In this document: one piece after another, positions 863-19,518 of the stretch | Position numbering within the stretch: position 1 is the stretch's first letter | How the letters are laid out: each line of letters opens with the position of its first letter | Assembly (NCBI GenBank): GCA_028681035.1 | Contig: JAQUJJ010000060.1 | Span: 1 to 20,363, forward strand | Direction of reading: 5' to 3' | DNA: 20,363 nt | Origin: Candidatus Cloacimonadota bacterium | GTDB taxonomy: Bacteria > Cloacimonadota > Cloacimonadia > Cloacimonadales > Cloacimonadaceae | Translations under genes and position numbers: made by a program | Notes under the pieces: generated by a model | What the model was told of the DNA's origin: nothing | Databases searched by the model: none | What the model saw: the letters and a program-made list of their open reading frames with translations, nothing else

Positions 863-3800
863 ATGGACGTATTTGATCTTCGAGAAAAGTTGATAGCAGA
901 CTACAGCTCATTCGTTAGGGGCTTTATTACTATCAAAGATGATACTATCAAAGACATGGTGGCATCTGAGCTGCGAGACGGACTGCTTTGGCCCGATCCG
1001 CTTATCCAGCTTAGTCCCTTTTTTGAATCAGGCGGAACCATCGATGAATTAGTTCAAACTGGCATCCTGCATCCCCACTGCAAACAGATCTTCCGCATCA
1101 AAAAAGACGAAGCAGATTTTGGCAAGCAGATGCAGCTGCACCGTCATCAAACTGAGGCTATTGCGCGGGCTGAAAAGGGCTTAAACTACATTTTGACTAC
1201 AGGGACTGGATCAGGAAAAAGCCTGGCCTATATCATCCCGATCGTGAACCATGTACTGACCGCCGGAAGTGGAAAAGGCATCAAGGCGATTATCGTTTAT
1301 CCCATGAATGCACTCGCCAATAGTCAGGCTCTGGAATTGACCAAGTTTATCGAGTTTGGCTTTCCTGCCGGATTAAGACCAGTTACTTTCAGACGCTATA
1401 CTGGCCAGGAATCTGATCAGGAAAAGAATGAGATCTGCTCCAATCCTCCTGATATACTCCTGACCAACTATGTAATGCTGGAGCTTATCCTCACCCGCCC
1501 TGGTGAAGCGCGTTTGGTCAATGCCTGCAAAAATCTCAAGTTCCTGGTTCTGGATGAACTGCACACCTATCGCGGCCGCCAGGGAGCTGATGTGGCCATG
1601 CTTATACGACGCACCAAAGACGCTGCTCATGCCGAAGATGTGATTTGTGTGGGGACTTCAGCCACTCTTTCCAGCAGTGGAGACCGCGCTCAGCAAAACA
1701 AAGAAATAGCACGGGTAGCATCTTTACTATTTGGCAGCGTGGTCCATCCCCAGGATGTGATCGGAGAGACACTCCAGAGAATAAGCTCAGAATACGACTT
1801 TGAAGATACCCTCGTAATCAACAAAATCAAAAGCAGCATCCTGAGCATTGATTCGCTCCCTGCACTTAGCTATGAAGACATCAAGCAAAACGAATTTTGT
1901 TCCTGGATCGAATCTACCTTTGGCTTGACCACAGATCCATCTTCGGAGAAGCTCGTGCGTTCACTCCCCAAGAGCATTTTAGGGCCTGAAGGTGGAGCTG
2001 AAGCCCTTAGTAAACTTACCGGAATAGATCTGGATACTTGTGCCCACGCTATCCAGAAGATATTGATGATCGGATACAACGCCAAGAATCCCGCCAATGG
2101 CTTCCCCGTCTTTGCGTTTAGATTGCACCAGTTCATCAGTCGGGGTGATACGGTTTATGCTTCTTTGGATGAGAAAGAGCTCAGGCATCTTACCATCCAA
2201 AGGCAGGTATTTGTCCCCAATAGCAATAAAAAGAAAATCCTTTTGCCTCTGGCCTTCTGCCGCCATTGCGGACAGGAGTTTTATACTGTGCTTAAGGTCT
2301 TTGATGAAGAGAAAAGCTTGCCCAAATATATCTCACGTGATCTCAATGAACGCATCTTTGAGAGTGACCAGGAGGCAGGATTCCTATATGCGAACTATGC
2401 TGATAGGTGGTCTAATAATATGGCAGAAAACACCGACAAGATTCCAGACGAGTGGAAAGATCAGAATGGCAAAGTGCTGTACAACCGCCAGGTATATCTG
2501 CCAAAGCCTGTTTATTTGAATCCTGATGGCTATGAGAGCACTGAAGGCAGACAGATGCTATTTCTCTCAGCTCCCTTCCGCTATTGCCCCCATTGCATGG
2601 TTTCTTATGCTGCCAACCAGCGCAGCGACTTTGCCAAGCTCTCGGCTCTCGGCACCGAAGGCAGAAGCACGGCTACTACTATTTTATCGCTGTCTGCGGT
2701 CAGGCATATCAGACAGATGGAATTGCCCAAAGAAGCCCAAAAGCTGCTCAGCTTCACAGATAACAGGCAGGATGCCTCGCTGCAATCCGGGCACTTCAAC
2801 GATTTTATCCAAGTTGGCCTACTGCGTGGTGCTTTGTATCATGCCCTCTCAAAACAAGGTGCAGAAGGAGCCCGGGATAGCGAGCTTACTCAGCTTGTCT
2901 TTGATAGCCTGAATCTTCCTTTTGAAGAATATGCTTCGAACCCGGAAGCCAGTAAAGGCGCTGCCATCATGGAAACGCAACGTGCTTTGCGTAAGGTAAT
3001 CGGTTATCACCTCTATCGTGATTTGCAGAGAGGCTGGCGGGTAACCGCCCCGAATCTCGAGCAAACAGGTCTTTTGGAGATCAGCTACCTTTGCATCGAT
3101 GAACTGGCAGCTGACACAGAGCAGTGGGCAGCTTGCCATCCGGCCCTGTCTTCCGCAAAGACAGAAGCCAGACTAAACATACTGAATACTCTCTTGGACT
3201 GGATGCGCAGGGAACTTGCCATCAAAACATCTTATCTGGACCCGCAGGAACAGGAGAGAATCTTGCAGCAAAGCCAGCAACGCCTGATCCCGCCCTGGGG
3301 TTTTGACGAAAATGAACAGACCAGACAATTAACCCATGCTGCCATTCTGTACCCGCGCTCTCGCAGAGCTGGCAAAGATTATGGCGGAGATGCTTTCCTT
3401 TCTACCCGCAGTGGTTTTGGCCAGTTCTTAAGACGCTCCAATACCTTCCACGATTACACTCAGAAAATATCCTTAGATGACACACAGGTTATTATAGAAG
3501 ACCTGCTAAACGGCTTGGTCGCTTATGGCATCATAGAAAAGGTAAAAGAAGCCAGCAAAGATGATGATACCCATGGCTATCAATTAGTAGCAGACTCGAT
3601 GCTCTGGAAGGCAGGTGATGGCACCCAGGTAGCGCATGACCCCATCCGTCAAACCTCATCATCTACCGAAGGACAGGCTGTTAATGCTTATTTCAAAGAA
3701 TTTTATCAGTTCATTGCAGCTTCCACAATCGGCCTCTATGCTAAAGAACATACAGCTCAAGTGTCCTATGATGAACGTGAACGTCGGGAAGAAGAGTTCA

Positions 3801-6085
3801 GAAAAGCTAATCTACCCATTCTGTACTGCTCTCCCACCATGGAGCTCGGTATTGATATCTCACTTTTGAACGTAGTCAATATGCGTAATATCCCGCCTAC
3901 ACCTGCTAATTATGCTCAGCGCAGCGGTCGGGCAGGCAGAAGCGGGCAGCCAGCTCTGATCTTTACCTATTGTTCCGCTGGAAGTCCGCATGACCAGTAT
4001 TTCTTCAAACGCCCCGTCGATATGGTGTCAGGGGCGGTGGCTACTCCTCAGATAGACCTGGCCAATGAGGACATGCTGCATTCCCACCTCAATGCTATCT
4101 GGCTTTCTGAGGCCAAACTGAGCTTGGGCAAGACCCTGACAGATGTGATTGACATCTCAGGGCAACCGCCTTTGTTAGAATTGCTGCCAAGCTTTAGGGC
4201 TACCTTAAATGACTTTGCCATCAGGCAGCGGGCTTTGAGCCGCGCAGCCAAGATCATCGCTTCCATCGAAGAGTATTTAATCGACTCAATCTGGTACAGC
4301 CCTGATTGGCTTAGCGATATGATGAACGAATTACCCATGCAGTTTGAACAAGCTTGTGAGCGCTGGCGAGGACTTTACAAAGCCGCCCTAAGGCAGCAGG
4401 AAGTGCAGAATAGAATCATTCTGGATGTCAGCCGGGGCTCCACTGACAAGAATCAAGCGAAGCGGCTCAGACGCGAAGCAGAATCTCAGCTTGAGTTACT
4501 TACATCCTCCAGTGGTGCTTTCCAATCAGATTTCTATAGCTACCGCTATTTTGCCAGCGAAGGCTTTTTGCCGGGGTATAATTTTCCCAGGCTTCCGTTG
4601 TCTGCTTTTATTCCAGGCAGAAGATTGAAGAGTGGCAAAGACGAATATCTTTCCAGACCGAGGTTCCTGGCTATTACGGAGTTTGGCCCCCGTTCCTTTG
4701 TTTACCACGAAGGTTCCAGATACATCATCCATCAGGTTATCATACCTGCCCAGGACGAGCAGAATAGCATTACTACTTCCGAATCCAAGATTTGCTCCCA
4801 GTGTGGCTATCTGCATACCGATAGCTCGAAAGACTATATCTCACAATGTGATGTCTGCGAGCACTGTGGCAGCCAGCTCGATGCTCCCATAGCCAATTTG
4901 TTCAGACTCCAAAATGTGGTGGCCAAGCGCAGGGATCAGATCAATTGCGATGAAGAAGAGCGGCTCAGACTGGGTTATGACATCAGGACAACCCTGCGTT
5001 TTGCAGTACGAAACGGGAATCTGTCTTGTATAAGTGCCAAAATCATGCAAGCAGATGGAACCTGCCTGGCTACACTTACCTATGGTGATTCTGCGATGAT
5101 TTGGCGGATCAATATGGGCTATCGCAAGCGCGACAGCAGTGAGTCAGAAGGCTTCTGGCTGGATACAGAACGAGGTTATTGGGCTAAACGGCCGGATGAA
5201 GATGCCGATGATGATTCTCCCATGGGCAAATCCAAAATACTTGTGCGCCCCTTCGTGAACGACACCAAGAACTGTTTGCTCTTTGAACCAGGATTTCAGG
5301 TAAGCGACACGATAATCGCTTCTCTGCAGGCTGCCCTCAAAAATGCCATCCAAAGAGCATTTGAGCTGGAAGACAATGAGCTTGCTGCAGAATCCTTACC
5401 CGCTAAAGACAAGAGAAAGTCCATCCTCTTTTATGAATCTACGGAAGGTGGAGCAGGAGTTTTGAAGCAAGTGATAGACATCGGCGGATTCAAAAAAGTG
5501 ATGAGGGAAGCTATCGGACTCTGCCATTATGATCCCCACACCTTTGAAGATAAGTACAAGGCGCTCCATGCCAAAGAACCTTGCGAAGCAGCTTGTTATG
5601 ATTGCCTGATGAGCTATTCAAATCAAACCGATCATGAGCTTCTGGACCGCAAGGCGATCATAGATATCCTGATTAGTCTGCTGGGTGCAGATATCTTCCG
5701 CTCCTCCAGCGAACATTCCCGGGCGGAGCACTATGCAAGGCTCAAAAACCTGGCAGATTCTGAGCTTGAGATTAAGTGGCTGGATTATATCTATAACAAT
5801 GGCTTTATCCTGCCTACTCATGCGCAAGAGCTTATTGAAGCCTGCCATACCAGACCTGATTTTATCTATCAAGACAAATACACTGCCATCTATATCGACG
5901 GTCCAGTTCATGACTCTTTGGAACAGCGGGCCAAAGATAAAGCCATAGTGGAGAGTCTGGATGATTTGGGCTGGCATGTAATCCGATTCCGTTATGATGA
6001 AAACTGGCAAGCTACTATCTCAAATTATGCCAATATCTTTGGAGCAAAGGAGAATAAGCATGGTTTATTTACAGAAGGACATTGA
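863..6085 (+). CDS. Large SF2 DEAD/DEAH helicase with DUF1998/MZB region and C-terminal Vsr-like nuclease (DISARM DrmA/DrmB-like)
   Basis: This 1740-aa protein is predicted to be an ATP-driven DNA translocase or helicase with its own nuclease. Helicase motifs are visible: Walker A GTGSGKS (114-120), DELH (231-234), GTSAT (264-268), FTDNRQDAS (631-639), MELGIDIS (993-1000) and QRSGRAGR (1019-1026). Cysteine pairs C466/C469 and C575/C578 lie between the two RecA lobes; another cluster is C1311, C1314, C1329, C1332, C1335. The region FYESTEGGAGVL (from 1523) with C1554, C1574, C1578, C1581 is the DUF1998/MZB signature known from MrfA and DrmB. Residues 1666-1720 (PDFIY, then YIDGPVH with D1679 and H1683, then GWHVIRFRYDE) match the Vsr/DUF559 nuclease core. 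AAAGGA precedes the start. In DISARM these helicase and DUF1998 parts are usually separate genes. The nuclease function is inferred from motif only. Confidence 0.9.
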   Translation: MDVFDLREKLIADYSSFVRGFITIKDDTIKDMVASELRDGLLWPDPLIQLSPFFESGGTIDELVQTGILHPHCKQIFRIKKDEADFGKQMQLHRHQTEAIARAEKGLNYILTTGTGSGKSLAYIIPIVNHVLTAGSGKGIKAIIVYPMNALANSQALELTKFIEFGFPAGLRPVTFRRYTGQESDQEKNEICSNPPDILLTNYVMLELILTRPGEARLVNACKNLKFLVLDELHTYRGRQGADVAMLIRRTKDAAHAEDVICVGTSATLSSSGDRAQQNKEIARVASLLFGSVVHPQDVIGETLQRISSEYDFEDTLVINKIKSSILSIDSLPALSYEDIKQNEFCSWIESTFGLTTDPSSEKLVRSLPKSILGPEGGAEALSKLTGIDLDTCAHAIQKILMIGYNAKNPANGFPVFAFRLHQFISRGDTVYASLDEKELRHLTIQRQVFVPNSNKKKILLPLAFCRHCGQEFYTVLKVFDEEKSLPKYISRDLNERIFESDQEAGFLYANYADRWSNNMAENTDKIPDEWKDQNGKVLYNRQVYLPKPVYLNPDGYESTEGRQMLFLSAPFRYCPHCMVSYAANQRSDFAKLSALGTEGRSTATTILSLSAVRHIRQMELPKEAQKLLSFTDNRQDASLQSGHFNDFIQVGLLRGALYHALSKQGAEGARDSELTQLVFDSLNLPFEEYASNPEASKGAAIMETQRALRKVIGYHLYRDLQRGWRVTAPNLEQTGLLEISYLCIDELAADTEQWAACHPALSSAKTEARLNILNTLLDWMRRELAIKTSYLDPQEQERILQQSQQRLIPPWGFDENEQTRQLTHAAILYPRSRRAGKDYGGDAFLSTRSGFGQFLRRSNTFHDYTQKISLDDTQVIIEDLLNGLVAYGIIEKVKEASKDDDTHGYQLVADSMLWKAGDGTQVAHDPIRQTSSSTEGQAVNAYFKEFYQFIAASTIGLYAKEHTAQVSYDERERREEEFRKANLPILYCSPTMELGIDISLLNVVNMRNIPPTPANYAQRSGRAGRSGQPALIFTYCSAGSPHDQYFFKRPVDMVSGAVATPQIDLANEDMLHSHLNAIWLSEAKLSLGKTLTDVIDISGQPPLLELLPSFRATLNDFAIRQRALSRAAKIIASIEEYLIDSIWYSPDWLSDMMNELPMQFEQACERWRGLYKAALRQQEVQNRIILDVSRGSTDKNQAKRLRREAESQLELLTSSSGAFQSDFYSYRYFASEGFLPGYNFPRLPLSAFIPGRRLKSGKDEYLSRPRFLAITEFGPRSFVYHEGSRYIIHQVIIPAQDEQNSITTSESKICSQCGYLHTDSSKDYISQCDVCEHCGSQLDAPIANLFRLQNVVAKRRDQINCDEEERLRLGYDIRTTLRFAVRNGNLSCISAKIMQADGTCLATLTYGDSAMIWRINMGYRKRDSSESEGFWLDTERGYWAKRPDEDADDDSPMGKSKILVRPFVNDTKNCLLFEPGFQVSDTIIASLQAALKNAIQRAFELEDNELAAESLPAKDKRKSILFYESTEGGAGVLKQVIDIGGFKKVMREAIGLCHYDPHTFEDKYKALHAKEPCEAACYDCLMSYSNQTDHELLDRKAIIDILISLLGADIFRSSSEHSRAEHYARLKNLADSELEIKWLDYIYNNGFILPTHAQELIEACHTRPDFIYQDKYTAIYIDGPVHDSLEQRAKDKAIVESLDDLGWHVIRFRYDENWQATISNYANIFGAKENKHGLFTEGH

Positions 6086-6224: not shown

Positions 6225-6303
6225 AAAACTGCTTATTTTGGGCATATCACAGATGATGTGTACAGAATATGCTGCAATAGAACAGTATAGGAAGTATTTA
6301 TGA
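6217..6303 (+). CDS. Tiny hypothetical ORF (28 aa), doubtful
   Basis: The frame runs from ATG 6217 to TGA 6301-6303 and overlaps the Fic start as ATGA. The product starts MYKKLLILGISQMMCT. The same pattern, MHKNLIYLGIRDTLCT, is present inside the preceding small protein from 6133, and the DNA is visibly alike over about 45 bases with an offset of 84. This suggests a local duplication rather than an independent gene. No good ribosome site is seen. Confidence 0.25.
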   Translation: MYKKLLILGISQMMCTEYAAIEQYRKYL

Positions 6304-7370
6304 CTTTTGTGTTAAAGAACTTACCCCCCGATATCGAATTAGAGACCAAGCAAGTCTTGCGTAAAGCTGCTTCTGCACATAGATATCTGGCAGAACTTAA
6401 GGGGATTTCCGCGACCATACCCAATCAAGCCATCTTGATCAATACGCTTTCCCTGCAGGAAGCAAAGGACAGCTCCGCCATTGAGAATATAATCACAACT
6501 CATGATGATCTTTATCGTGAGGATATCTTTCCGGAACACACCTTCAGTGCGGCGGCAAAGGAAGTAAGCCGCTATGTATTTGCACTCAAAAAAGGCTATC
6601 ATGCGGTGAAGGATCAAGGCTTACTCACCTCCAATCATATCATAGATATTCAAGCAGAGCTGGAAACGCATAGCTCGGGATTCCGGAAATTGCCTGGTAC
6701 AGAGCTTAGAAATGAGCAGACCGGACAAGTAGTATATACCCCGCCCCAAAACCATCAAGATCTTATCGAGCTGATGTCCAATCTCGAAAAGTACATCAAT
6801 GATAATCAACAAAGTGATGTAGACCCTTTGGTTAAGATGGCTGTAATTCACTATCAATTTGAGAGTATACATCCATTCTATGACGGTAATGGACGTACTG
6901 GCAGGATCATAAACGTTCTTTACCTGGTACTCAAGGACTTGTTGGATATACCTGTTCTATATCTCAGTAGGCATATTGTAAAGAACAAGGGTACTTATTA
7001 TCATCTTCTGCAAAAGGTGAGAGACGAAGGTGCCTGGGAAGAATGGCTATTATTCATGCTAAACGCTGTAGAAGAGACCTCCAAACAGACCATACAAATC
7101 ATCCATGAGATCAGCAAAGCTATTCTGAAATACAAGCACCTAATCAGAGATAAACATAAATTCTATTCACAGGATTTGATAAACAACCTCTTCTTCCATC
7201 CCTATACCAAGATTGAGTTTGTCGTGCGCGATCTTGAAGTGAGCAGAAACACTGCCTCAAAATACCTGGATGCTCTTTGTGAAGATGGCCTGCTCAAGAA
7301 ACAGAAAATAATCACAAGCAACTACTACATCAATACTGCGCTCTACAGCATTTTAACCAAGGATTCATAA
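6300..7370 (+). CDS. Fic-domain protein adenylyltransferase with C-terminal winged helix
   Basis: This 356-aa protein has the full catalytic Fic motif HPFYDGNGRTGR at 191-202. H191 is the expected base and the GNGR loop binds the nucleotide phosphates. Such enzymes usually transfer AMP from ATP to a protein hydroxyl. The N-terminal inhibitory helix SSAIEN (58-63) fits the (S/T)xxxE(G/N) rule, with E62 expected to block ATP binding, so it is a class II Fic with built-in auto-inhibition. Residues from about 290 (FVVRDLEVSRNTASKYLDAL) look like a winged helix-turn-helix, common in this subfamily. AGGAAG precedes the start. Its stop at 7370 touches the ATG of the SNF2 gene. In this setting it may be an abortive-infection effector or regulator; the target cannot be read from sequence. 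Confidence 0.93.
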   Translation: MTFVLKNLPPDIELETKQVLRKAASAHRYLAELKGISATIPNQAILINTLSLQEAKDSSAIENIITTHDDLYREDIFPEHTFSAAAKEVSRYVFALKKGYHAVKDQGLLTSNHIIDIQAELETHSSGFRKLPGTELRNEQTGQVVYTPPQNHQDLIELMSNLEKYINDNQQSDVDPLVKMAVIHYQFESIHPFYDGNGRTGRIINVLYLVLKDLLDIPVLYLSRHIVKNKGTYYHLLQKVRDEGAWEEWLLFMLNAVEETSKQTIQIIHEISKAILKYKHLIRDKHKFYSQDLINNLFFHPYTKIEFVVRDLEVSRNTASKYLDALCEDGLLKKQKIITSNYYINTALYSILTKDS

Positions 7371-10250
7371 ATGGCCACTCCACTCACTCCTCACCACTCA
7401 CCCCTCACTGTTTATCCCATCGGTTCTCTCGTGAATACCCGGAGCCGAGAATGGGTCGTAATGCCAGATTCCACAGATGAACTGCTCATCCTAAAGCCCC
7501 TGGGTGGCAGCGATGACGAGATCACCGGCATTCTTACCGCGCTTGAAAAAGTAAAACCTGCTACTTTCAGCCTGCCAGACCCTACACAATTAGGTGACTA
7601 TCAGTCCTGTCGCCTGCTCCGAGATGCGCTGAGACTGGGCTTTCGCAATAGTGCCGGCCCTTTCAGAAGCTTTGGCAGATTGGCAGTTGATCCCAGGCCT
7701 TACCAGCTAGTTCCTCTGATGATGGCGCTCAAGCTTGATCCTGTGCGCCTCTTGATCGCTGATGATGTGGGTATCGGTAAAACCATTGAAGCTGGTTTGA
7801 TTGCCCGTGAACTGGTAGATCGTGGTGAGATCAGTCGCTTTTGTGTACTCTGCCCACCGCATTTGGCAGAACAGTGGCAAGCAGAGCTCAGCAGCAAATT
7901 CCACCTGGATGCTGAAATGGTCTTAGGCAGCACAGTTCGCCGTTTGGAACGCAATTGCCGGGCCAATGAATCCATCTTTGAAGTATATCCTTACACGGTT
8001 GTTTCTATAGATTACATCAAGACAGACCGGCACAAGGATGAATTCATCCGCACAGCTCCGGAACTGATCATCGTAGATGAAGCGCATACTGCCAGCTTCG
8101 ATGATGTCAAGCGCAGCAGCAGGCATCAGCGCTTTGATCTGATCAAGAGACTTAGCGAGAATCCCCAGAGGCATATCCTGCTGGTTACGGCCACGCCCCA
8201 TTCCGGCAATGAAGCCGCCTTCAGATCGCTGCTCACCTTGCTCAAAAGTGATGTTGAATTCTTTCCTCAAGACTTAAGCGGCACCCAGAATAGGGAGCAT
8301 CGCCGGGTAATCGCCCAACATTTTGTTCAGAGGCGCAGAGCCGACATTGAATTCTTCATGGGCGAAAAGACTGAGTTTCCCACTGCCGAGACCAAAGAAA
8401 TCCATTACAAGCTCTCGGAACCTTATCGTGATTTATTTGATAAAGCCCTGAAATATGCCAGAGAAATAGTTCGCGATCAGGAAGGAGGCCAGCATCGCCA
8501 AAGAGTCCGTTGGTGGTCTGCCCTGGCTCTTCTGCGCGCCCTTGCCTCCAGCCCGGCTGCTGCGGCAGCTACCATGCGCAATCGTAGTGCCACTCTGGAA
8601 ACTGAGACTGCCACCGAAGCCAATGAAATAGGCCGGCGTCTTGTCCTGGATATTGACGATAATGACAGCACTGATGCCAGCGATATCCTTCCCGGCAGCG
8701 ATTCCCACACCCAAGAAGATGAAAACGTCATCAGCCACCGCAAGCTTACAGCTATGGCAAGAGCAGCCGAAGCTCTGTTTGGTGAGCACGATACCAAAAT
8801 GCTTGGGCTGCTGAAACCGCTCAAGGATCTGATCAAAGAGGAGTATAGTCCCATCATCTTCTGCCGTTTCATCCAAACTGCGGAGTATTTGGCTGAACAG
8901 CTTCGGGAGCGATTGCCCAAATCTATCCAGATTGCCGCCGTAACAGGATTACTGCCGCCTGAAGAGCGTGAACTGCGGGTCAAGGAATTGGCTGAGCATC
9001 CCTCACGAATTTTAGTGTGTACAGATTGTCTTTCCGAAGGCATAAACTTACAAGAGCGCTTCAATGCTGTAATCCATTATGACCTCAGTTGGAACCCTAC
9101 CCGGCATGAGCAACGTGAAGGCCGGGTTGACCGTTTTGGCCAAAAGCGTGACATAGTGCGGATGATCACTTATTATGGGATTGATAACCAGGTGGACGGC
9201 ATCGTCTTGGATGTTCTGCTGCGCAAGCATAGGCAGATCAAATCTTCACTCGGTATCTCAGTTCCTTTCCCTGCCGATACCGATGCCGTGCTGGAAGCTA
9301 TTTTTGAAGGCCTTCTGCTACGAGAGCAGTCCGGATCCAGCGAACAATTGGTCATTGCCGGTTTTGAGGAGTACTTCAAAGAAGATAAAAAGAAGCTGCA
9401 CGATGCTTGGGAAAATGCCAAGGAAAAGGAAAAACGCAGCCGTACTATGTTTGCCCAGGAAGGCCTTACGGCCAGGGTGGATGAAATTAAGGCAGAGCTT
9501 GAATCCATCAGAGATTCCATCGGCTCTCAGCTTAGTATCAGGGATTTTGTACGGCAGACCTTACTCCGCTACAAAGCCAGCATTAAAGAAGTCAAAAACA
9601 GCTATCAGATCGATCTCAGCCCAGTGCCAAAGCTCATCAAAGAAAGCTGTGGCTACCTGCCGGATAAACTCACCGTCACATTTGATCTGCCTGCCCAGGA
9701 TAAGGAAATCTATCTCTCTCGTACCCATCCCATCGTGGAAGGCCTTGCCGATCTGGTGATGGCCACTGCCTTGGACAGCGAAAGCCAGCATGCTGTTGCC
9801 AGTCGCGCCGGAGTGATCCGCACTACTGCTGTAGAACGGAGGACCACCTTATTACTTTTGAGATACCGTTTCCACCTCACCCAGTTCTTTGAGGATAAAA
9901 AGCCCTACCGTAGCCTGGTAGAAGATTCTCAGATCGTAGCCTTCACCGGGACCCCCGAAAACCCCGAATGGCTCTCCGAACCTAAAGCCAAAGCCTTGCT
10001 CCTCGCCATGCCAAGCGCCAATGTCCTACCCCAACAAGCCCAAGAGCAGATTCAGCGTATAATCACTAACCACTCCCTACTCACCTCTCACCTGAATACC
10101 TTTGCCCAGAGCCGCGCCACTGAACTGCTCGATTCTCATCAGAATGTCCGGGAGGTGATGTTGATGAAACGCTCTCAAAAACCGGAAATCAAGCCAGAGC
10201 TTCCACCGGATGTTCTTGGTATCTATGTGTATTTGCCGGGAGGGGAATAG
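7371..10250 (+). CDS. SNF2-family DEAD-like helicase (DISARM DrmD-like)
   Basis: This 959-aa protein carries both RecA lobes of an SNF2/HepA-type ATPase: Walker A DDVGIGKT (131-138), DEAH (236-239), LVTATPHSG (271-279), then PIIFCRF, CTDCLSEGINLQ and the arginine-finger motif QREGRVDRFGQ (581-591). It is expected to move along double-stranded DNA rather than unwind it. A charged, probably coiled segment follows around 680-730. The start directly abuts the Fic stop. The first codons (MATPLTPHHSPLTV) are heptamer-repeat sequence, and the conserved family part begins at YPIGSLV; a second short tract lies near the C-terminus (10062-10093). The class 1 DISARM gene drmD has this architecture and normally neighbours an adenine methyltransferase, as here. 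Assignment to drmD rather than another SNF2 clade is moderate. Confidence 0.93.
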   Translation: MATPLTPHHSPLTVYPIGSLVNTRSREWVVMPDSTDELLILKPLGGSDDEITGILTALEKVKPATFSLPDPTQLGDYQSCRLLRDALRLGFRNSAGPFRSFGRLAVDPRPYQLVPLMMALKLDPVRLLIADDVGIGKTIEAGLIARELVDRGEISRFCVLCPPHLAEQWQAELSSKFHLDAEMVLGSTVRRLERNCRANESIFEVYPYTVVSIDYIKTDRHKDEFIRTAPELIIVDEAHTASFDDVKRSSRHQRFDLIKRLSENPQRHILLVTATPHSGNEAAFRSLLTLLKSDVEFFPQDLSGTQNREHRRVIAQHFVQRRRADIEFFMGEKTEFPTAETKEIHYKLSEPYRDLFDKALKYAREIVRDQEGGQHRQRVRWWSALALLRALASSPAAAAATMRNRSATLETETATEANEIGRRLVLDIDDNDSTDASDILPGSDSHTQEDENVISHRKLTAMARAAEALFGEHDTKMLGLLKPLKDLIKEEYSPIIFCRFIQTAEYLAEQLRERLPKSIQIAAVTGLLPPEERELRVKELAEHPSRILVCTDCLSEGINLQERFNAVIHYDLSWNPTRHEQREGRVDRFGQKRDIVRMITYYGIDNQVDGIVLDVLLRKHRQIKSSLGISVPFPADTDAVLEAIFEGLLLREQSGSSEQLVIAGFEEYFKEDKKKLHDAWENAKEKEKRSRTMFAQEGLTARVDEIKAELESIRDSIGSQLSIRDFVRQTLLRYKASIKEVKNSYQIDLSPVPKLIKESCGYLPDKLTVTFDLPAQDKEIYLSRTHPIVEGLADLVMATALDSESQHAVASRAGVIRTTAVERRTTLLLLRYRFHLTQFFEDKKPYRSLVEDSQIVAFTGTPENPEWLSEPKAKALLLAMPSANVLPQQAQEQIQRIITNHSLLTSHLNTFAQSRATELLDSHQNVREVMLMKRSQKPEIKPELPPDVLGIYVYLPGGE
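7375..7409 (+). repeat. Heptamer tract T1 (CCACTCA-type) at the start of the SNF2 gene
   Basis: Imperfect units of CCACTCA/CTCACC fill codons 2-13 directly after the start codon at 7371. A change of one unit would shift the frame of the whole SNF2 gene. Confidence 0.75.
10062..10093 (+). repeat. Heptamer tract T2 (degenerate)
   Basis: The stretch AATCACTAACCACTCCCTAC followed by TCACCTCTCACC is a decayed version of the same repeat, within the SNF2 C-terminal region (peptide NHSLLTSHL). Confidence 0.5.
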
Positions 10251-10324
10251 TGAGTAGTAAAGTGGTGAGTAGTAAAGTGGTGAGTAGTAAAGTGGTGAGT
10301 GGTAAAGTGGTGAGTGGTAAGTGG
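10250..10324 (+). repeat. Tract T3: five 15-bp units in the reverse orientation
   Basis: Units of GTGAGTAGTAAAGTG start at 10250, 10265 and 10280, followed by variants GTGAGTGGTAAAGTG at 10295 and GTGAGTGGTAAGTGG at 10310. TGAGTGG is the reverse complement of the CCACTCA heptamer seen elsewhere, so this tract is related but flipped. It begins at the last base of the SNF2 stop codon. The spacer continues to 10457 without a supported gene; a 68-codon frame there from GTG 10250 consists of the repeat and unremarkable sequence. Confidence 0.85.
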
Positions 10325-10457: not shown

Positions 10458-10829
10458 ATGAGTAGTCAATCTTACCAAGACCTGGATGTTTGGCAAAGAG
10501 CTATGACGCTGGCCGAGAAAGCATACCAGATTACGGCAGCGTTTCCCAAAAGCGAGATGTTTGGGCTTACAAACCAGATTAGAAGAGCTGCTTCATCTGT
10601 GCCAGCCAACATTGCAGAAGGCTGGGCAAGGAATGGTGACAAAGAATTTCTCCATTTCCTCAGAATAGCGCATGGCAGCTTGCGTGAATGTGAATCTCAT
10701 TTAATCTTATCCTCCCGTATAAAATTTTGTGATCCCAGTTCCATTGCTCCCATCTTGGAAGAGATCACTATCATCAGCAAACAGCTCTTATCGTTGATGC
10801 GTCACATCAAAGGCAAAACTAATGCATAA
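10458..10829 (+). CDS. Four-helix-bundle protein (23S rRNA intervening-sequence / IVP family)
   Basis: This 123-aa protein has the family pattern: QDLDVWQRAMTLAEKAYQIT, then FPKSEMFGLTNQIRRAASSV, PANIAEGWAR and FLHFLRIAHGSLRECESHL, ending in a helix that reaches SLMRHIKG. Length and motif order are typical of the family, whose members form small basic oligomeric helical bundles; relatives serve as accessory proteins (Avd) of diversity-generating retroelements, but most have no known role. No reverse transcriptase is near. The gene lies between the SNF2 and methyltransferase genes with repeat tract T3 just upstream, and overlaps the methyltransferase start (ATG 10822) by eight bases. It does not belong to known DISARM operons, so it may be an insertion carried with the repeat. 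Confidence 0.92.
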   Translation: MSSQSYQDLDVWQRAMTLAEKAYQITAAFPKSEMFGLTNQIRRAASSVPANIAEGWARNGDKEFLHFLRIAHGSLRECESHLILSSRIKFCDPSSIAPILEEITIISKQLLSLMRHIKGKTNA

Positions 10830-13800
10830 CAAGCTTCGAAGAACGCCATCCTCTACTCACCATCTCACCCCTTCTGCCATCCGCACCGTCGGCGCCATCC
10901 TCCCCGCAGAATTACTGCAACGCATCATAAATGGCGACACCACCTTAGAAGGCTTAAAGCCCACAGATTTTCATCTCAGTCCTGGTGAACGCCTGGGTGA
11001 AGCTGCCACCCGTGCCTGGAACCGTATGACCGGTGTCTGGAAAACCTATAAAGATATCATAGACCGCTTGCCCCAGGACGCCATCGGCACCACCGAAACC
11101 CGCGAACGCTGGCTCCTGCCCCTATTTCAAGAGCTGGGCTATGGCCGTCTCCAAACCCAGAAATCACTGGAAATAGATGGCAAACTCTACCCCATCAGCC
11201 ACAAAGCAGCAGAGCCCGTCGCCATCCACTTAGTCAGCTTCAAGTGGGATCTGGACCGCCGCCCCACCTCCCCCCACTCACCACTTACCCCCTCGCCAAA
11301 CTCACCATCTCACCACTCCTCCACTCACCACTCACCATCTCACCACTTACCCAAATCCTCGCCTCATTCTTTGATCCAGGAATTCGTCAATCGCAGCAAG
11401 GACCACCTCTGGGGCTTCCTCTCCAATGGCTTCAAGCTCCGCATCTTGCGAGACAATATCTCTCTTACCCGCGCGGCCTATGTGGAATTCGATCTACAGG
11501 CAATGATGGATAATGATGCCTATAGCGATTTCTTCCTGCTCTATCTACTCTGCCATCAATCCCGGGTGGAAGCCAAAACAGACGAATCCGGCAGATTGCT
11601 TGGCCCCGAAAGCTGTTGGCTGGAAAAGTGGTACAATACTTCCATCACAGAAGGCGTGCGTGCCCTGGATGATTTGAGGGCTAATGTCCAATCTGCCATC
11701 GAATCACTGGGAGCGGGCTTTATCGCCTATCCCAATAATATCGAACTGAGAGACAAGCTCCGGGATGGAGCCCTTAGTCTGCAAAACTATTACCATCAGG
11801 TCCTGCGTCAGGTCTATCGTCTGCTCTTTGTCTTTGTGGCAGAGGATCGTGATTTACTGCTCGCTCCCGATGCGCCGGATGCCAGCAAAGAGATTTACCA
11901 AAAATACTATTCTACCTACCGCATCAGAGAACTTGCCCTAAGAAAGAGGGGCACCAAACACAGCGATCTCTGGCAGCACCTGGACTTGCTCTTTAATAGC
12001 CTCTACGACGGCAACCCTGCCCTCGGATTGCCAGCCCTGGGTTCCTTTCTGTTTAAAGCAGAATCGACTCCGGATTTGGCAGATTGCGGCCTGGCCAATA
12101 GCGACCTGCTTTCCGCCTTCCGTTATCTCTGCTATACGCAAAAGAACAATATCTTCCAGCCCATCAATTACCGCAATCTCGGTCCCGAAGAACTGGGCAG
12201 CGTCTATGAATCGCTCCTGGAAATGCACCCCGAAATCAACCTTGAAGCCGGATTCTTCAAGCTCAACATCATTTCCGGTTCAGAACGCAAAACCACCGGC
12301 AGCTACTATACCCCTGCGTCTCTTGTAAATTGTTTGTTAGATTCAGCGCTGGAACCGGTAATTGCGAAAGCAGTGAGTGGAAAGGAAGTGAGTAGTGAGT
12401 GGAGTGTCGGCAGCGATAGCTCTTCTGCCCCCAACTCACCACTCACCTCTCACCACTCACCAGAGCAAGCCCTGCTTGCTCTAAAAATCTGCGACCCCGC
12501 CTGTGGCAGCGGACACTTCCTCATCGCCGCAGCCCATCGCATTGCCAAACGCCTGGCCGCTATCCGTGCAGGAGAAGATGAGCCTGCACCCAGCATTATC
12601 CAGCATGCCCTGCGCGACGTGATCGGTCACTGTATCTACGGTGTGGATATCAACCCCATGAGTGTGGAACTCTGCAAAATCTCGCTCTGGATGGAAGCCT
12701 TGGAACCGGGCAAACCTCTTACCTTCCTGGAACATCACATACAGTGCGGAAACTCGCTTCTGGGCTGTACTCCTGCGCTGCTCAAGAAAGGCATCCCCGA
12801 TGCTGCCTTCACTGCTTTGACCGGCGACGATAAAGCTTACTGCGCCAAATACAAAAAGCAGAACAAAGAAGAAAGCAAGGGTGATGTAATCGACATCTTC
12901 AGCGGCGACGAGAAACCCTGGGAACATCTGGGCAACCATGCTCCCTATGTGATAAACCTGAACCAGATGGAAGATGACAGCATAGAAAATCTGACCAGGA
13001 AAGAGGAAGCCTATGCCGAGATCATGCGTTCTTCCGCATATCTGAATAGCAAGTTTATCTACGATGCCTGGTGCGCTGCCTTTGTCTGGGAAAAAGTCCC
13101 CAGCGACACCTTACCCTATCCCATCACCCAACGCCTGCTGGATAACATAGAAAGCAATCCCTACAGCGTGAATCCCGCTATCCGCAGCGAAATAATCCGC
13201 TTGGCTAAAGAGTATCAGTTCTTCCACTGGCATATCGCCTTTCCCGATGTTTTCCCGCCACTTACCACTCACAGCTCACCACTCACCCCCCAAGGCTTTG
13301 ACTGTGTCCTTGGCAATCCTCCCTGGGAAAGGGTAAAACTGCAGGAAAAGGAATTCTTTGCGGCCAGAGATGCGGAGATAGCCAACGCCGCCAATGCTTC
13401 CATCAGGAAAAAGCTGATAGAAGCACTACCTTCTACCAACCCCGCTCTATACCGGGCTTTTTTGGCAGAGAAACGGGTGTCGGAAGGCTCCTCTTTGCTG
13501 ATCCGCGAAAGCGGAGTCTACCCTCTCTGCGGAAGAGGAGATCTAAATACCTATACTGTCTTTGCAGAACTGAACCGCAACTTGCTTAATCCACGTGGGC
13601 ATTGCGGATGTATAGTCCCCAGTGGCATAGCCACCGATGATACCACCAAGTTCTTCTTTCAGGATTTGTTCGATACCGGCTCTTTAAAAAGCCTCTATGA
13701 TTTTGAAAATAGGGAGAAACTTTTTCCGGCTGTGGATAGCCGTATGAAGTTCTGCCTGCTCACCCTGCGCGCAGCGAGCTCCACTCACCATTCGCCACTC

Positions 13801-15096
13801 ACCACCCACCAAGCGGCAGATTTCCTCTTCTTCGCCCATTCTGTAGCCGATTTAAACGATGCTGAGCGTCATTTCCAACTCAGCAGGGAAGATGTCGCTC
13901 TCATCAATCCCAATACCCGCACCTGTCCCATTTTCCGCACCAAACAGGATGCCGAACTCACCAAATATATCTATCGTCGCGTGCCTGTTCTGATCAATGA
14001 AAATGACCCCGAGCAGGGCAATCCTTGGGGGATCTCATTTATGCGTATGTTTGATATGTCCAACGACTCCCAGCTCTTCAAGACCAAAGAGCAGATGGAG
14101 GATATGGGCTTTGAGCTGCAAGGCAATCGCTTCATTCGCGTTGCGCAGGACACTATTCCTGCGGGACAAATGGACAGTGTTTTGCCAGAACCAGAGGTCT
14201 ATCTGCCTCTGTATGAAGCGAAGATGATACACCACTACAACCACCGCTTTGGAGATTATGCCGATCTGCCCGCTGGCTCGAATTCCACTCAACTGCCCAA
14301 TATCCCGCTTTCACGCCTAGAGGACCCGAATTATGAACCTCTGCCAAGGTACTGGGTAAAAAAGGACGAAGTCGAGAGTGCAACGCCAGACACTAAGGGT
14401 TACTTTTTAGGGTTTAGGGATATATGTAGATCAACAGACGAAAGGACTATTATTGCTTCTTTCATTACCCAAACCGCAGTTAGCAATAAAATGCCACTCC
14501 TTCTATGTGATTATAGGGCAGCCACAACTTCTTATCTTAATGCTTGTTTGAATAGCTTTGCATGTGACTTTGTTAGTAGATTTAAAATAGGTTCTACTAG
14601 TCTAAACTTCTTTATTGCAAAGCAACTTGCCGTTTTACCCCCCACAGCTTTCGATAAACTGGATTCCCTACTCACCACTCACCACCTTGCCTCCTCACCA
14701 TCCGCCCTACTCACCACTCACCGCTTACCACTCACCTCCCTTCTGCTGGAGCTAATCTATACTTCTTACAGCATGCAAGCCTTCGCTCAAGACTGCGGCT
14801 ACGATGGACCTCCCTTTATCTGGAATGAAGAACGCCGTTTTGAGATCCGCTGTGAACTGGATGCCCTCTATTTCCATCTCTATCTTGGCACACAAGAAGA
14901 GTGGATGAAGCCCCCACTCACCACTCACCACTCACCACTCACTACTCACCCCCTATTTCCCCACCCCTCGCCATGCCGTAGATTACATCATGGATACCTT
15001 CCCCATCGTCAAGCGCAAAGACGAAAAGGAATATGGAGAATACCGCACCAAACACCGCATCCTGGAAATCTACGACCAAATGACCCCCATCTTTGA
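10822..15096 (+). CDS. Eco57I-type N6-adenine DNA methyltransferase (DISARM DrmMI-like), C-terminus frameshifted
   Basis: The 1424-aa frame encodes a large class I methyltransferase. Motif I DPACGSGHF is at 558-566, with SYYTPASLVNCLLDSALEPV before it and GVDINPMSVELCKISLWMEAL after it. The catalytic NPPW is at 832-835, which marks an enzyme methylating adenine N6 with S-adenosylmethionine. Later GYFLGFRDICRSTDERTIIA and SLNFFIAKQLAVLPP are the conserved C-terminal part of the family. I see no nuclease motif, so cutting would come from partner proteins. Heptamer repeats interrupt the gene at about residues 10-17, 148-181, 518-547, 813-823, 987-997, 1283-1306 and 1364-1377. At the last tract the frame slips: the residues to 1424 look meaningless, while the true C-terminus continues in the +1 frame to 15259. 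In the window the protein is therefore truncated and altered. Confidence 0.9.
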   Translation: MHNKLRRTPSSTHHLTPSAIRTVGAILPAELLQRIINGDTTLEGLKPTDFHLSPGERLGEAATRAWNRMTGVWKTYKDIIDRLPQDAIGTTETRERWLLPLFQELGYGRLQTQKSLEIDGKLYPISHKAAEPVAIHLVSFKWDLDRRPTSPHSPLTPSPNSPSHHSSTHHSPSHHLPKSSPHSLIQEFVNRSKDHLWGFLSNGFKLRILRDNISLTRAAYVEFDLQAMMDNDAYSDFFLLYLLCHQSRVEAKTDESGRLLGPESCWLEKWYNTSITEGVRALDDLRANVQSAIESLGAGFIAYPNNIELRDKLRDGALSLQNYYHQVLRQVYRLLFVFVAEDRDLLLAPDAPDASKEIYQKYYSTYRIRELALRKRGTKHSDLWQHLDLLFNSLYDGNPALGLPALGSFLFKAESTPDLADCGLANSDLLSAFRYLCYTQKNNIFQPINYRNLGPEELGSVYESLLEMHPEINLEAGFFKLNIISGSERKTTGSYYTPASLVNCLLDSALEPVIAKAVSGKEVSSEWSVGSDSSSAPNSPLTSHHSPEQALLALKICDPACGSGHFLIAAAHRIAKRLAAIRAGEDEPAPSIIQHALRDVIGHCIYGVDINPMSVELCKISLWMEALEPGKPLTFLEHHIQCGNSLLGCTPALLKKGIPDAAFTALTGDDKAYCAKYKKQNKEESKGDVIDIFSGDEKPWEHLGNHAPYVINLNQMEDDSIENLTRKEEAYAEIMRSSAYLNSKFIYDAWCAAFVWEKVPSDTLPYPITQRLLDNIESNPYSVNPAIRSEIIRLAKEYQFFHWHIAFPDVFPPLTTHSSPLTPQGFDCVLGNPPWERVKLQEKEFFAARDAEIANAANASIRKKLIEALPSTNPALYRAFLAEKRVSEGSSLLIRESGVYPLCGRGDLNTYTVFAELNRNLLNPRGHCGCIVPSGIATDDTTKFFFQDLFDTGSLKSLYDFENREKLFPAVDSRMKFCLLTLRAASSTHHSPLTTHQAADFLFFAHSVADLNDAERHFQLSREDVALINPNTRTCPIFRTKQDAELTKYIYRRVPVLINENDPEQGNPWGISFMRMFDMSNDSQLFKTKEQMEDMGFELQGNRFIRVAQDTIPAGQMDSVLPEPEVYLPLYEAKMIHHYNHRFGDYADLPAGSNSTQLPNIPLSRLEDPNYEPLPRYWVKKDEVESATPDTKGYFLGFRDICRSTDERTIIASFITQTAVSNKMPLLLCDYRAATTSYLNACLNSFACDFVSRFKIGSTSLNFFIAKQLAVLPPTAFDKLDSLLTTHHLASSPSALLTTHRLPLTSLLLELIYTSYSMQAFAQDCGYDGPPFIWNEERRFEIRCELDALYFHLYLGTQEEWMKPPLTTHHSPLTTHPLFPHPSPCRRLHHGYLPHRQAQRRKGIWRIPHQTPHPGNLRPNDPHL
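10850..10872 (+). repeat. Heptamer tract T4 at the methyltransferase N-terminus
   Basis: CCTCTACTCACCATCTCACC encodes STHHLTP close to the start codon. A change of one unit would shut off the entire reading frame. Confidence 0.6.
11264..11365 (+). repeat. Heptamer tract T5, about 100 bp
   Basis: This is the longest tract: variants of CCACTCACCATCTCACCACT. It encodes a Pro/Ser/His/Thr-rich insert (SPHSPLTPSPNSP, HHSSTHHSPSHH) between HLVSFKWDLDRR and LIQEFVNRSKDHLWGF, which are conserved blocks of the N-terminal domain. It sits exactly at an exposed linker. Confidence 0.85.
12372..12461 (+). repeat. Heptamer tract T6, both orientations
   Basis: The left half (12372-12407) holds TGAGTGG-type units and the right half (12431-12461) holds CCACTCA-type units, so the two halves can pair in DNA or mRNA. 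It encodes a Ser-rich linker (VSGKEVSSEWSVGSDSSSAP, then LTSHHSP) just before methyltransferase motif I. Confidence 0.85.
13258..13290 (+). repeat. Heptamer tract T7
   Basis: Units encode LTTHSSPLTP between AFPDVFPP and GFDCVLGNPPW, immediately upstream of the catalytic NPPW motif. Confidence 0.8.
13781..13811 (+). repeat. Heptamer tract T8
   Basis: Units encode STHHSPLTTHQ between the block SRMKFCLLTLRA and ADFLFFAHSVADL of the methyltransferase. Confidence 0.75.
14667..14738 (+). repeat. Heptamer tract T9
   Basis: Two runs encode LLTTHHLASSPSALLTTHRL, placed between AVLPPTAFDKL and the following helix LLLELIYTSYSM of the methyltransferase. Confidence 0.8.
14912..14952 (+). repeat. Heptamer tract T10, site of the frameshift
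   Basis: Nearly perfect consecutive CCACTCA units (14914 onward) encode PLTTHHSPLTTHP. Upstream sequence is coherent only in the frame of ATG 10822, downstream sequence only in the +1 frame. In that +1 frame a TGA at 14906-14908 bounds the slip on the left. Deleting one 7-bp unit, or adding two, joins the frames. Confidence 0.85.
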
Positions 15097-15113
15097 TTCT
15101 GGCGCAGCATCTG

Positions 15114-15146
15114 GCCACTCACCACTCACCACTCACCACTCACTAT
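15114..15146 (+). repeat. Heptamer tract T11
   Basis: Perfect CCACTCA units (CCACTCACCACTCACCACTC and on) encode SPLTTHHSLL in the out-of-frame methyltransferase tail, about 35 codons before its stop. Confidence 0.85.
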
Positions 15147-15255
15147 TAGATCCCCCTCCCGGTCCTCCCTGTGATGAAAATGGCAGCTTCATCCCGGTGG
15201 AGCAGTGGGATCCGGATAATTGGCCACCGCATATTCATAAAAGAAAGGAGAGTTT

Positions 15256-15621
15256 ATGACACTGAATGCAACTTTAAGCTTTGCTAAGCTAAACCATCCA
15301 ATATTTAGAGTCCTTCGGTCCACCTTGTTCTTGCTTGTGCTGTTCTTTGGTCTGTGTGCTTGCGGAACTAAGTCCCGAACCCAAGTCTGGGAGTATATGT
15401 CCTTGTCGATGAATACTAGTGAATTTACTATGCATACTGATTCAGGTATAAACATAGGTGCTTTCAATATGACAAAATACGGCAAGAAAGGCTGGGAACT
15501 CATCAGCACAATTCCGATCACAGAATCTGATTATCGTTATTCCTCGGGCGCACTCAATAATGTGGAAACGAAGAAAGTTGTTTTAATTTTCAAAAGACCT
15601 TTATCTAAGAAAAGGAAGTAA
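15256..15621 (+). CDS. Putative lipoprotein with DUF4177-like domain
   Basis: This 121-aa protein starts at ATG 15256, overlapping the methyltransferase-tail stop (ATGA), with AAAGGAG at 15243-15249. Residues 17-35 form a hydrophobic signal sequence (FRVLRSTLFLLVLFFGLCAC) ending in a lipobox, with C36 as the likely lipidated residue. The mature part VWEYMSLSM ... YGKKGWELISTIPI ... VLIFKRP follows the DUF4177 pattern of a short beta fold with a central GWEL. The expected location is the envelope. DUF4177 proteins have no established function. Its coupling to the methyltransferase is unexpected for a DNA-defence operon; it may be a later neighbour or an envelope partner of the system. Confidence 0.8.
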   Translation: MTLNATLSFAKLNHPIFRVLRSTLFLLVLFFGLCACGTKSRTQVWEYMSLSMNTSEFTMHTDSGINIGAFNMTKYGKKGWELISTIPITESDYRYSSGALNNVETKKVVLIFKRPLSKKRK

Positions 15622-18495: not shown

Positions 18496-18549
18496 TTGAC
18501 ACATATCCCTATCTGATAGTCTTTAGTAAAGTTGTACTGGAGGTGTATA
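18496..18549 (+). promoter_or_regulatory. Promoter/5' leader, right copy, for the Sel1 gene
   Basis: TTGACA at 18496-18501, a weak TAGTCT at 18517-18522 and GGAGGT at 18539-18544, five bases before the ATG. Spacing is identical to the left copy at 683-736, and most invariant positions lie in TTGACA, CCTATC, AGTAAA and GGAGGTG. Confidence 0.45.
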
Positions 18550-19518
18550 ATGCGTAAATTGGAACTCTTGTTGATATTCCTTGTGATGATGGGAACACTT
18601 TGGAATGAGTTGACTTATAGTGATTCACTACTATCAGCAGCAAGAAATGGTGATGCCGAAGCACAATACTGTTTGGGTGTGTGTTATGCCGATGGTTATG
18701 GTGTCGCACAAGATGATAAGGAAGCGGTCAAGTGGTATCGTTTGGCTGCAGAGCAGGGCTATGCCAATGCTCAATTCTTGCTGGGTCTGAGTTACTTTTC
18801 TGGAGAAGGTGGCATGCAGGATTTAAGGGAAGCAGTGAGATGGTATCGTCTGGCAGCTGATCAGGGAAGTGCCGAAGCACAAATAAATTTGGGGTGGCTT
18901 TACGCCAATGCTGAGGATATCTTACAAGATAAAAAGGAGTCGCTCAGGTGGTATCGTCTGGCAGCAGAGCAGGGACACCCAGATGCACAATATAATTTGG
19001 GTCAGTGTTACTACCATGGTAATGGCGTCTTACAAGATTATAAAGGAGCAGTGAAATGGTATCGATTGGCGGCGGAGCAGGGAGAGCCCGATTCTCAATG
19101 CAATTTGGGTCAGTGTTACCACCTTGGTGAGGGCGTCCTACAAGATCATAAGGAAGCGGTGAAGTGGTATCGCCTGGCAGCAAAGCAGGGAGATGCGATA
19201 GCGCAAAACAATTTGGCTGTGTGTTACGATAGTGGTGAAGGCGTCGTGCAGGATAATAAGGAAGCGTTCAGGTTGTATCACTTGGCGGCTGAGAAAGGGT
19301 ATGCCAGAGCACAGCATAATTTGGCTATTTGCTACTCTAATGGTGATGGCGTCTTGAAAGATAAAAAAGAAGCTTATTTTTGGTATTTAATATCGTCCGT
19401 AAGTGGCGGTGAGAACTCACAAGATGGTCGTTATGCTGTTGCGCAAGAACTAAGTGTTCAGCAGCGGGAGCAAATTGAATCAAGAGCTATAAAGTGGCTT
19501 GACGAGCATGAGCAATAG
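18550..19518 (+). CDS. Secreted Sel1-repeat (tetratricopeptide-like) protein
   Basis: I choose ATG 18550 (322 aa) rather than an upstream in-frame start at 18532, because GGAGGT (18539-18544) is correctly placed for it. Residues 1 to about 24 (MRKLELLLIFLVMMGTLWNE) form a signal peptide. Seven 36-residue Sel1 repeats follow, from about 28 to 280, each with the pattern GxAxAQxxLGxxYxxGxGVxQDxKEAVKWYRLAAEQ. The C-terminus is a charged helix (QREQIESRAIKWLDEHEQ). Such alpha-solenoids bind proteins in the periplasm or at the envelope. The third and fifth repeats are slightly degenerate. Its leader and signal peptide are duplicated at 683-794, on the other side of the defence genes. Confidence 0.93.
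   Translation: MRKLELLLIFLVMMGTLWNELTYSDSLLSAARNGDAEAQYCLGVCYADGYGVAQDDKEAVKWYRLAAEQGYANAQFLLGLSYFSGEGGMQDLREAVRWYRLAADQGSAEAQINLGWLYANAEDILQDKKESLRWYRLAAEQGHPDAQYNLGQCYYHGNGVLQDYKGAVKWYRLAAEQGEPDSQCNLGQCYHLGEGVLQDHKEAVKWYRLAAKQGDAIAQNNLAVCYDSGEGVVQDNKEAFRLYHLAAEKGYARAQHNLAICYSNGDGVLKDKKEAYFWYLISSVSGGENSQDGRYAVAQELSVQQREQIESRAIKWLDEHEQ

Follow-up and report, generated by a model that had tools for sequence, protein, structure and literature searches.

Switching of phasevarion mod genes works through repeats inside the reading frame, and Rickettsia genes carry palindromic elements inserted in frame. Here we analyse a 20,363-nt stretch of a Candidatus Cloacimonadota bacterium (contig JAQUJJ010000060.1, assembly GCA_028681035.1; the whole stretch is called the window below), whose defence island includes an adenine methyltransferase gene that loses its frame inside an array of CCACTCA-type heptamers, just before the last conserved block of the protein (the C-block). 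As with the Rickettsia elements, a short repeat is tolerated as extra residues; the arrays differ in being built of 7- or 8-bp units of variable copy number, which puts the frame at risk.

Several described systems come close to this arrangement. Phasevarion mod genes likewise encode adenine methyltransferases, with ON/OFF switching (PMC4525171, PMC2667262), but of a different enzyme class, whereas here the tract lies near the 3′ end and is known from a single sequence. Helicobacter canadensis shows C-terminal phase variation by homopolymers (PMC2823697): as in the window, these repeats lie late in the coding sequence and a change in unit number alters the C-terminus only. There, however, homopolymer lengths vary in sequencing reads, whereas here a heptamer in a defence methyltransferase is known from one assembled sequence. 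Among the papers listed by our literature search, none was found to describe a defence methyltransferase with a C-terminus varied by heptamer slippage.

The arrays themselves have other parallels. Among repeats of 5–11 nt, heptamers form the largest class in most of the genomes that have been surveyed (PMC4679880, citing earlier work). Those of Xanthomonas and Nostoc (PMC4692102), which in two Xanthomonas genomes include 70 and 75 inverted pairs at close spacing, and the TAACTGA repeats of Beggiatoaceae (PMC4679880) are likewise dispersed arrays, but mostly outside coding regions; the phrase 'four helix' has 0 occurrences in the texts of these two papers. An intervening sequence (IVS) in 23S rRNA that carries an S23 open reading frame (ORF) has inverted ends and upstream heptamers, of which some strains have three and others two; its authors judge the ORF probably not expressed and expendable, and describe the S23 family, a common one, as having no known function (PMC4990558). 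Like such elements, the window has an S23 ORF preceded by tandem heptamers, and inverted repeats may enclose it. The IVS sits in 23S rRNA; in the window two protein genes of the island flank the S23 gene, and arrays occur in the neighbouring coding sequence as well.

Frame break at a heptamer array

Clear homology of the methyltransferase ORF (Table 1) to its family in frame 1 ends with the codon TGG at 14902–14904 and resumes in frame 2 at 14954. An earlier sequence-only reading had placed a slip of the frame inside the heptamer tract, and on this point our analysis agrees. The ORFs lie as described, at 10822–15096 and, in the +1 frame, at 14990–15259 (89 aa); the downstream frame encodes the family's own C-terminus; and its stop, TGA (15257–15259), overlaps the ATG at 15256 of the next ORF, as in the ATGA overlap reported there. 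The 49-nt linker at the junction holds ATGAAGC, heptamers and a run of C. Because 7 leaves a remainder of 1 on division by 3, 42 or 63 nt (one unit fewer, or two more) would keep the frame, and with one unit taken out the protein comes to 1361+14+101 = 1476 aa, the length predicted by that reading. A change of unit number in this tandem array thus moves the reading frame, as is looked for in phase-variable genes. The heptamer itself leaves all three frames of the + strand open (reading PLTTHHS) and places TGA in each frame of the opposite strand. Two-unit matches with at most one mismatch number 19 in the window, against an expectation of 0.00 from 100 shuffles. The earlier reading left the gene 'OFF or C-terminally altered'; the second description is to be preferred over the first, because the break falls ~92% along the 1476-aa form.

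We interpret the break as slippage at the array that has altered the C-terminus, a recent and potentially reversible change, and put the probability of this at roughly 0.55. At eight variable and probably loop positions the island methyltransferase would have gained short 7-bp arrays, inverted or tandem, like those flanking S23 genes, and there they would be read as tolerated linkers as long as their length preserves the frame. The array before the C-block is out of frame, and one-unit replication slippage would be the simplest cause of its linker length. The enzyme would then lose its last 101 conserved residues and end in a foreign 63-residue tail, which would be expected to affect its activity; the same slippage could reverse the change, so that the C-terminus would vary.

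The displaced part retains a coding signature. Compared with five relatives, it differs at codon positions 1/2/3 by 17/14/33, 18/12/34, 19/17/45, 25/17/61 and 13/12/39, so third positions dominate, as they do upstream. Codons with a changed residue versus silently changed codons number 27/21, 25/20, 28/26, 31/40 and 20/26 in this part and 137/169, 161/163, 210/141, 179/146 and 263/83 in the upstream stretch. Protein identity before and after the break is 83.7% and 71.3% for P0002 (79% identical overall, 1484 aa), the closest other protein among the matches listed, and 58.6% and 72.0% for the distant P0063. The block does not clearly appear decayed, and with third-position bias kept, the break would be recent, reversible or an assembly error.

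The last of these would mean that two identical 29-bp runs, 14914–14942 and 15115–15143, with starts 201 bp apart, were mis-resolved in the consensus and left a wrong number of units. The identity of these perfect runs matters for assembly, and the many similar tracts on one contig, together with a C-part that lacks clear decay, would fit such an error. Ordinary reads can generally span runs of this length, however, and the other upstream arrays of the gene keep the frame; we regard an error as distinctly unlikely. The two frames could also be joined during translation if the C-rich stretch prompted programmed +1 ribosomal frameshifting. CCC codon runs do stand at the junction, and the ATGA overlap would suit an extended product, but the sequenced island copies have a single open frame and no need of such a device, which makes it highly improbable here.

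Homologues bear on how unusual the break is. The protein search gave 6053 matches from 7997 scored candidates, and the best 120 of the 6053 are listed; 115 of the listed proteins, that of the window among them, reach 1250 aa and enter the counts below, for which the C-block was detected by BLAST, at least in part. The block is present in 111 of the 115 and missing from the window, P0008, P0014 and P0116. P0008 appears, from its tail at the protein level, to be frame-shifted at an array, and P0014 ends in what we take to be adaptor-derived sequence. Homologues ending naturally in the present frame at 15096, an alternative raised in the sequence-only reading, were therefore not what we found among the listed proteins, and a natural 1424-aa form is rejected. 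The standard linker, from FHLYLG to the PTPR motif, is 23 aa long, and many Cloacimonadota copies have longer arrays there. Of 90 linkers parsed among the 115, 56 are of standard length and 30 exceed it by 9 residues or more, each of these with the C-part present; parsing requires the C-part, so this count is circular for the frame question and we did not use it as evidence. No relatives were found in viral contigs, and no solved structures were matched by sequence.

Does the array switch the gene in a population? True phase variation would imply a standing mixture of unit counts, in which the methyltransferase, together with the next, overlapping ORF, would alternate between a full-length and a truncated form as adaptive bet-hedging. 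The heptamer does stand at a frame-sensitive position with third-position bias kept downstream, and units do change in number in this methyltransferase family: P0010 and P0012 align over 1446 residues without a single substitution, and at the protein level one 8-residue array unit is all that sets them apart. Published variation points the same way, among strains for heptamers beside an S23 ORF (PMC4990558) and for C-terminal homopolymer tracts (PMC2823697). Against this, array-type peptides, assigned by pattern, occur in 35 of the 115 proteins, and 33 of the 35 keep the C-block, the exceptions being the window and P0008. The out-of-frame tail (residues 1362–1424), used as query in a word-based search that needs shared 5-residue words, gave 4 candidates and 1 match, itself, so the wrong-frame tail was found in this contig only; and the SPSGHL-type array residues of 18 of the 115 proteins have an 8-residue, 24-nt unit that is unable to shift the frame. 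Both frame states were thus not found to recur among relatives. The proposal of a heptamer phase-variable methyltransferase holds for the array break and, in the gene family, the changing unit number, and does not extend to a population switch. Frame breakage at arrays seems to happen, if rarely among the listed proteins, and standing phase variation is possible on these data, though we think it unlikely.

A second alternative is a fixed, tolerated C-terminal truncation, or a first step of island decay, practically irreversible. Matches at E ≤ 1e-30 to the methyltransferase occur in 12 of 124 Cloacimonadota genomes, and ten island copies were fetched. One of these (G004) has an element of ~300 bp at the 3′ end of the gene, with 45-nt inverted TTAGGTG arms that are 87% complementary; the normal protein end was not found after the element, and the rest of the frame is open. 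Such a loss of the protein end at an array-bearing element favours fixation, and C-terminal pieces and fusion fragments suggest that islands of this type decay. With the C-part alone as query we found 125 short proteins (120 listed), some starting at the block's internal Met; these could be remnants of broken genes. In P0128, P0138 and P0152 a helicase N-terminus is joined to the methyltransferase C-terminus of the island, which points to large internal deletions between the island ends. Yet the remaining island genes of the window are open, and all ten fetched copies have a methyltransferase frame open over 1296–1431 codons from stop to stop. Fixed truncation therefore seems somewhat unlikely to us.

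Two observations stand beside these. In P0132, repeat residues of MENGALRMEN type precede a C-terminal methyltransferase piece, which might reflect a break at the same linker, there with a different repeat. Locus L078 has three elements of ~200–300 bp with inverted TTAGGTG arms within 20 kb of one genome (2401–2651, 15297–15595 and 18167–18395); one of the three stands at the methyltransferase end, and no S23 gene was found in the locus.

Several results weigh against slippage as the cause of a reversible change. Loss of the C-block is not commoner with arrays than without, given 2 of 35 versus 2 of 80 (P0014 and P0116). The tail search found no second allele of the window locus. The ratio of changed to silent codons is mixed, being higher in the C-part than upstream for two of the five relatives and lower for three. 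At five units the window array is short, and the array sites are taken for putative loops from alignment gaps only. An exact two-unit heptamer, finally, occurs in 5 of 124 Cloacimonadota genomes, and we reject the idea that the heptamer is a phylum-wide habit.

Arrays in the methyltransferase family and around S23 genes

Arrays are spread through the methyltransferase gene of the window. To compare its eight array sites (Table 1), 8 island genes, that of the window among them, were aligned with 7 proteins from the database, of which four or more seem to duplicate island copies; insertions or replacements occur at the same sites, and some relatives have array-type residues at the site that matches the last window array. 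Before the motif DPACGSGH, the window, G044 and G022 combine an antisense arm of the AGTGAGTGG or AGTAAGTGG kind with a sense arm of the CCACTCACC kind, and the corresponding stretches of the window and G044 fold as hairpins. In 45.2 kb of methyltransferase sequence (11 loci) we counted 7 ORF-internal arrays with a period of 7 or 8, versus 11 in 681 kb of other ORFs (Poisson p 1.2e-5); leaving out the window, 5 arrays give p 6.1e-4.

The S23 gene of the window belongs to PF05635 (130 bits, cut-off 33.8). No rRNA was found in the window, where a tRNA was the only RNA gene detected, and the S23 gene thus lies outside 23S rRNA. The stretch 10275–10323 upstream of it is inverted-complementary to ~11300–11349 in the methyltransferase gene (score 49), ~480 bp past the S23 gene; within 400 bp the inverted flanks score 24, under the threshold of 36 used elsewhere. 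From the end of the SNF2 frame to the methyltransferase start motif, the distance is 29 nt in G001 and 47 nt in G038, compared with 632 nt in the window and 647 nt in G022, where the S23 gene lies between. The short junctions suggest that an S23 unit was gained at this place. Without an S23 gene the distance is 197 nt in G037, 301 nt in G008 and 1561 nt in G044; G004 gave no match.

PF05635 is matched in 101 of 124 Cloacimonadota genomes, in 99 of them above the cut-off. We counted arrays at 40 Cloacimonadota S23 loci (701 kb), hand-picked for ~10 kb of sequence to the left. Of the period-7 arrays, 18 lie near the S23 gene (≤500 bp, 63.8 kb) and 24 far from it (binomial p 7e-9); for period 8 the corresponding counts are 27 and 10 (p 1e-20).

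For inverted flanks, S23 genes were sought at loci L086–L125, L129–L158 and L167–L196 with a profile built from 15 automatically picked ORFs, of which at least one (L049) is apparently no S23 protein. Flanks were called inverted at a score of at least 36, and the controls were flanks paired across different loci and other small ORFs. In Cloacimonadota, inverted flanks surround 32 of 47 S23 genes versus 1 of 362 mismatched pairings and 10 of 779 other small ORFs. The same holds for 17 of 29 S23 genes in Patescibacteria (2 of 226 pairings) and 7 of 26 in Spirochaetota (1 of 199), with tiny other-ORF controls of 0/4 and 0/6, respectively. Across the three phyla, 0.3–0.9% of mismatched pairs score as inverted. 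A small phylum with 4 genomes gave 3 of 5 versus 0 of 20, and Pelotomaculum 0 of 2. A run with the window included, its own pair being sub-threshold at 400 bp, gave 33 of 48 versus 4 of 287 pairings and 3 of 384 other ORFs. The first 30 Cloacimonadota loci share members with the later set and had given 16 of 31 versus 4 of 267; Spirochaetota in that run gave 7 of 24 versus 1 of 186.

The Cloacimonadota repeats are often 7- or 8-bp arrays, while in Patescibacteria and Spirochaetota some arms are not visibly tandem. The upstream arm is purine-rich (>60%, S23 sense strand) at 26 of 32 Cloacimonadota genes, and at 8 of 17 and 3 of 7 in the other two phyla. Rfam gave no match at the 20 loci tested of the first 30, which places these S23 genes outside rRNA. 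Within the limited literature searched, nothing was found on S23 genes with arrays outside rRNA.

These data lead us to a tentative proposal, to which we assign a little less than even odds: S23 genes may be the coding cargo of widespread hairpin elements outside rRNA with inverted arms of short units, often of 7 or 8 bp. The arms, by themselves or together with the S23 gene, would seed arrays in host genes and, in a helicase-methyltransferase defence island, load the methyltransferase with slippage-prone linkers, leaving its C-terminus variable. A simple link between S23 genes and arrays does not account for all observations. Inverted flanks are missing from 15 of 47 S23 genes in Cloacimonadota, 12 of 29 in Patescibacteria and 19 of 26 in Spirochaetota. 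The exact heptamer stands just after the S23 gene in G104 and in the methyltransferase gene, ~1.7 kb after the S23 gene, in G022; in G044 it is in the methyltransferase gene with no S23 gene on the contig, in G012 no S23 gene was found within 12 kb, and in G002 none was found genome-wide. None of 32 viral-contig loci with three heptamer units has an S23 gene, which also speaks against a strict link. Arrays thus exist without S23, and the heptamer is rejected as a universal S23 marker. In the viral stretches (L197–L228), CCACTCACC arrays mostly run in the sense direction inside frames of at least 100 aa.

The defence island and its arrays

The island genes follow in the order helicase (DruE-like), Fic, SNF2 helicase, S23 gene and methyltransferase (DrmMI- or type IIG-like). 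A helicase of ~1700 aa, the SNF2 gene and the methyltransferase gene follow one another in this way in 7 of the 10 copies fetched; the contig stretches of the remaining three do not show the complete set.

Table 1. Island genes, arrays and parts of the methyltransferase gene in the window. The eight CCACTCA-type sites with extra or replaced residues relative to tract-free homologues are numbered.
Feature	Position	Strand	Remarks
DEAD/DEAH helicase, DruE-like	863..6085	+	1740 aa; MrfA Zn-binding domain
Fic family protein	6300..7370	+	SoFic-like
SNF2-family helicase	7371..10250	+	DpdE/DrmD-like; short N-terminal array 7380–7408
G-rich (antisense heptamer) array	10250..10324	+	left arm of S23 unit, between SNF2 stop and S23 gene
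S23 / 23S_rRNA_IVP gene	10458..10829	+	four-helix bundle; not in rRNA; overlaps methyltransferase start by 8 bases
Adenine methyltransferase ORF (Eco57I / N6_Mtase type)	10822..15096	+	ATG 10822; 1424 aa; Pfam run on P0002 (79% identical homologue)
Family-like portion of methyltransferase	residues 1–1361 (to 14904)	+	last 63 residues are tract and out-of-frame tail
Short C-rich array, methyltransferase N-terminus	10853..10871	+	site 1; just 3′ of S23 gene
Heptamer array, N-terminal part of methyltransferase	11274..11351	+	site 2; ~11300–11349 inverted-complementary to array upstream of S23 gene
Left (G-rich) arm of inverted array	12372..12402	+	site 3; upstream of motif DPACGSGH; in frame
Right (C-rich) arm of inverted array	12432..12462	+	site 3; DPACGSGH site; in frame
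CCACTCA array	13258..13287	+	site 4; variable site; in frame
Two heptamer units, one mismatch	13795..13808	+	site 5; variable site; in frame
Two short ACTCACC arrays	14670..14736	+	site 6; variable site; in frame
Linker with frame break	14905..14953	+	49 nt; 10 codons in tract-free homologues
CCACTCA array, 5.3 units	14914..14950	+	site 7; 29 bp perfect; frame lost here; Tandem Repeats Finder
Displaced conserved C-terminal part	14954..15259	+	+1 frame; ends ATGA-overlapping next ORF
Second CCACTCA array, 4.1 copies	15115..15143	+	site 8; perfect; within displaced C-part; Tandem Repeats Finder

The core of DISARM consists of DrmA, DrmB and DrmC. The sequence-only reading had called the system DISARM-like, and the models do not bear this out. 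The helicase matches DruE best (1e-105) and DrmA weakly, over part of its length. The SNF2 protein matches one DrmA model at 4e-63, with DpdE and DrmD models better; in PADLOC the DpdE model scores 822 bits versus 295 for DrmD, and in NCBIfam the protein stays below the cut-offs of both DrmD (NF038317, 340 bits versus 610) and the DpdE equivalog (191 versus 500). No DrmB or DrmC row was found among the rows shown for 6 proteins (the best 25 rows for three). DISARM membership is therefore rejected, and 'DISARM-like' describes a style. For the methyltransferase, PADLOC ranks DrmMI first (7e-66, partial) and then a type IIG model (6e-50), and no NCBIfam model scored above its cut-off; its identification as BREX PglX is likewise rejected, with a best NCBIfam PglX row of 47.7 bits against a cut-off of 400.

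Other features of the window include 10.5 copies of a 12-bp unit (CTTAAATGGATA) at 277–408, upstream of a tRNA (479–551) and the helicase gene, and a 41-bp repeat (2.7 copies) at 6134–6244, between the helicase and Fic genes. Downstream of the island, a protein with a GmrSD_N domain (16314–18146) is a further candidate defence gene, and a Sel1-repeat protein (18532–19518) has a 108-bp tandem DNA repeat.

Should the frame change prove reversible, heptamer slippage would give a defence methyltransferase a variable C-terminus. S23 units may be one source of heptamer repeats, and the pairing of S23 genes and inverted repeats, seen in three phyla, provides a handle on the S23 protein family.

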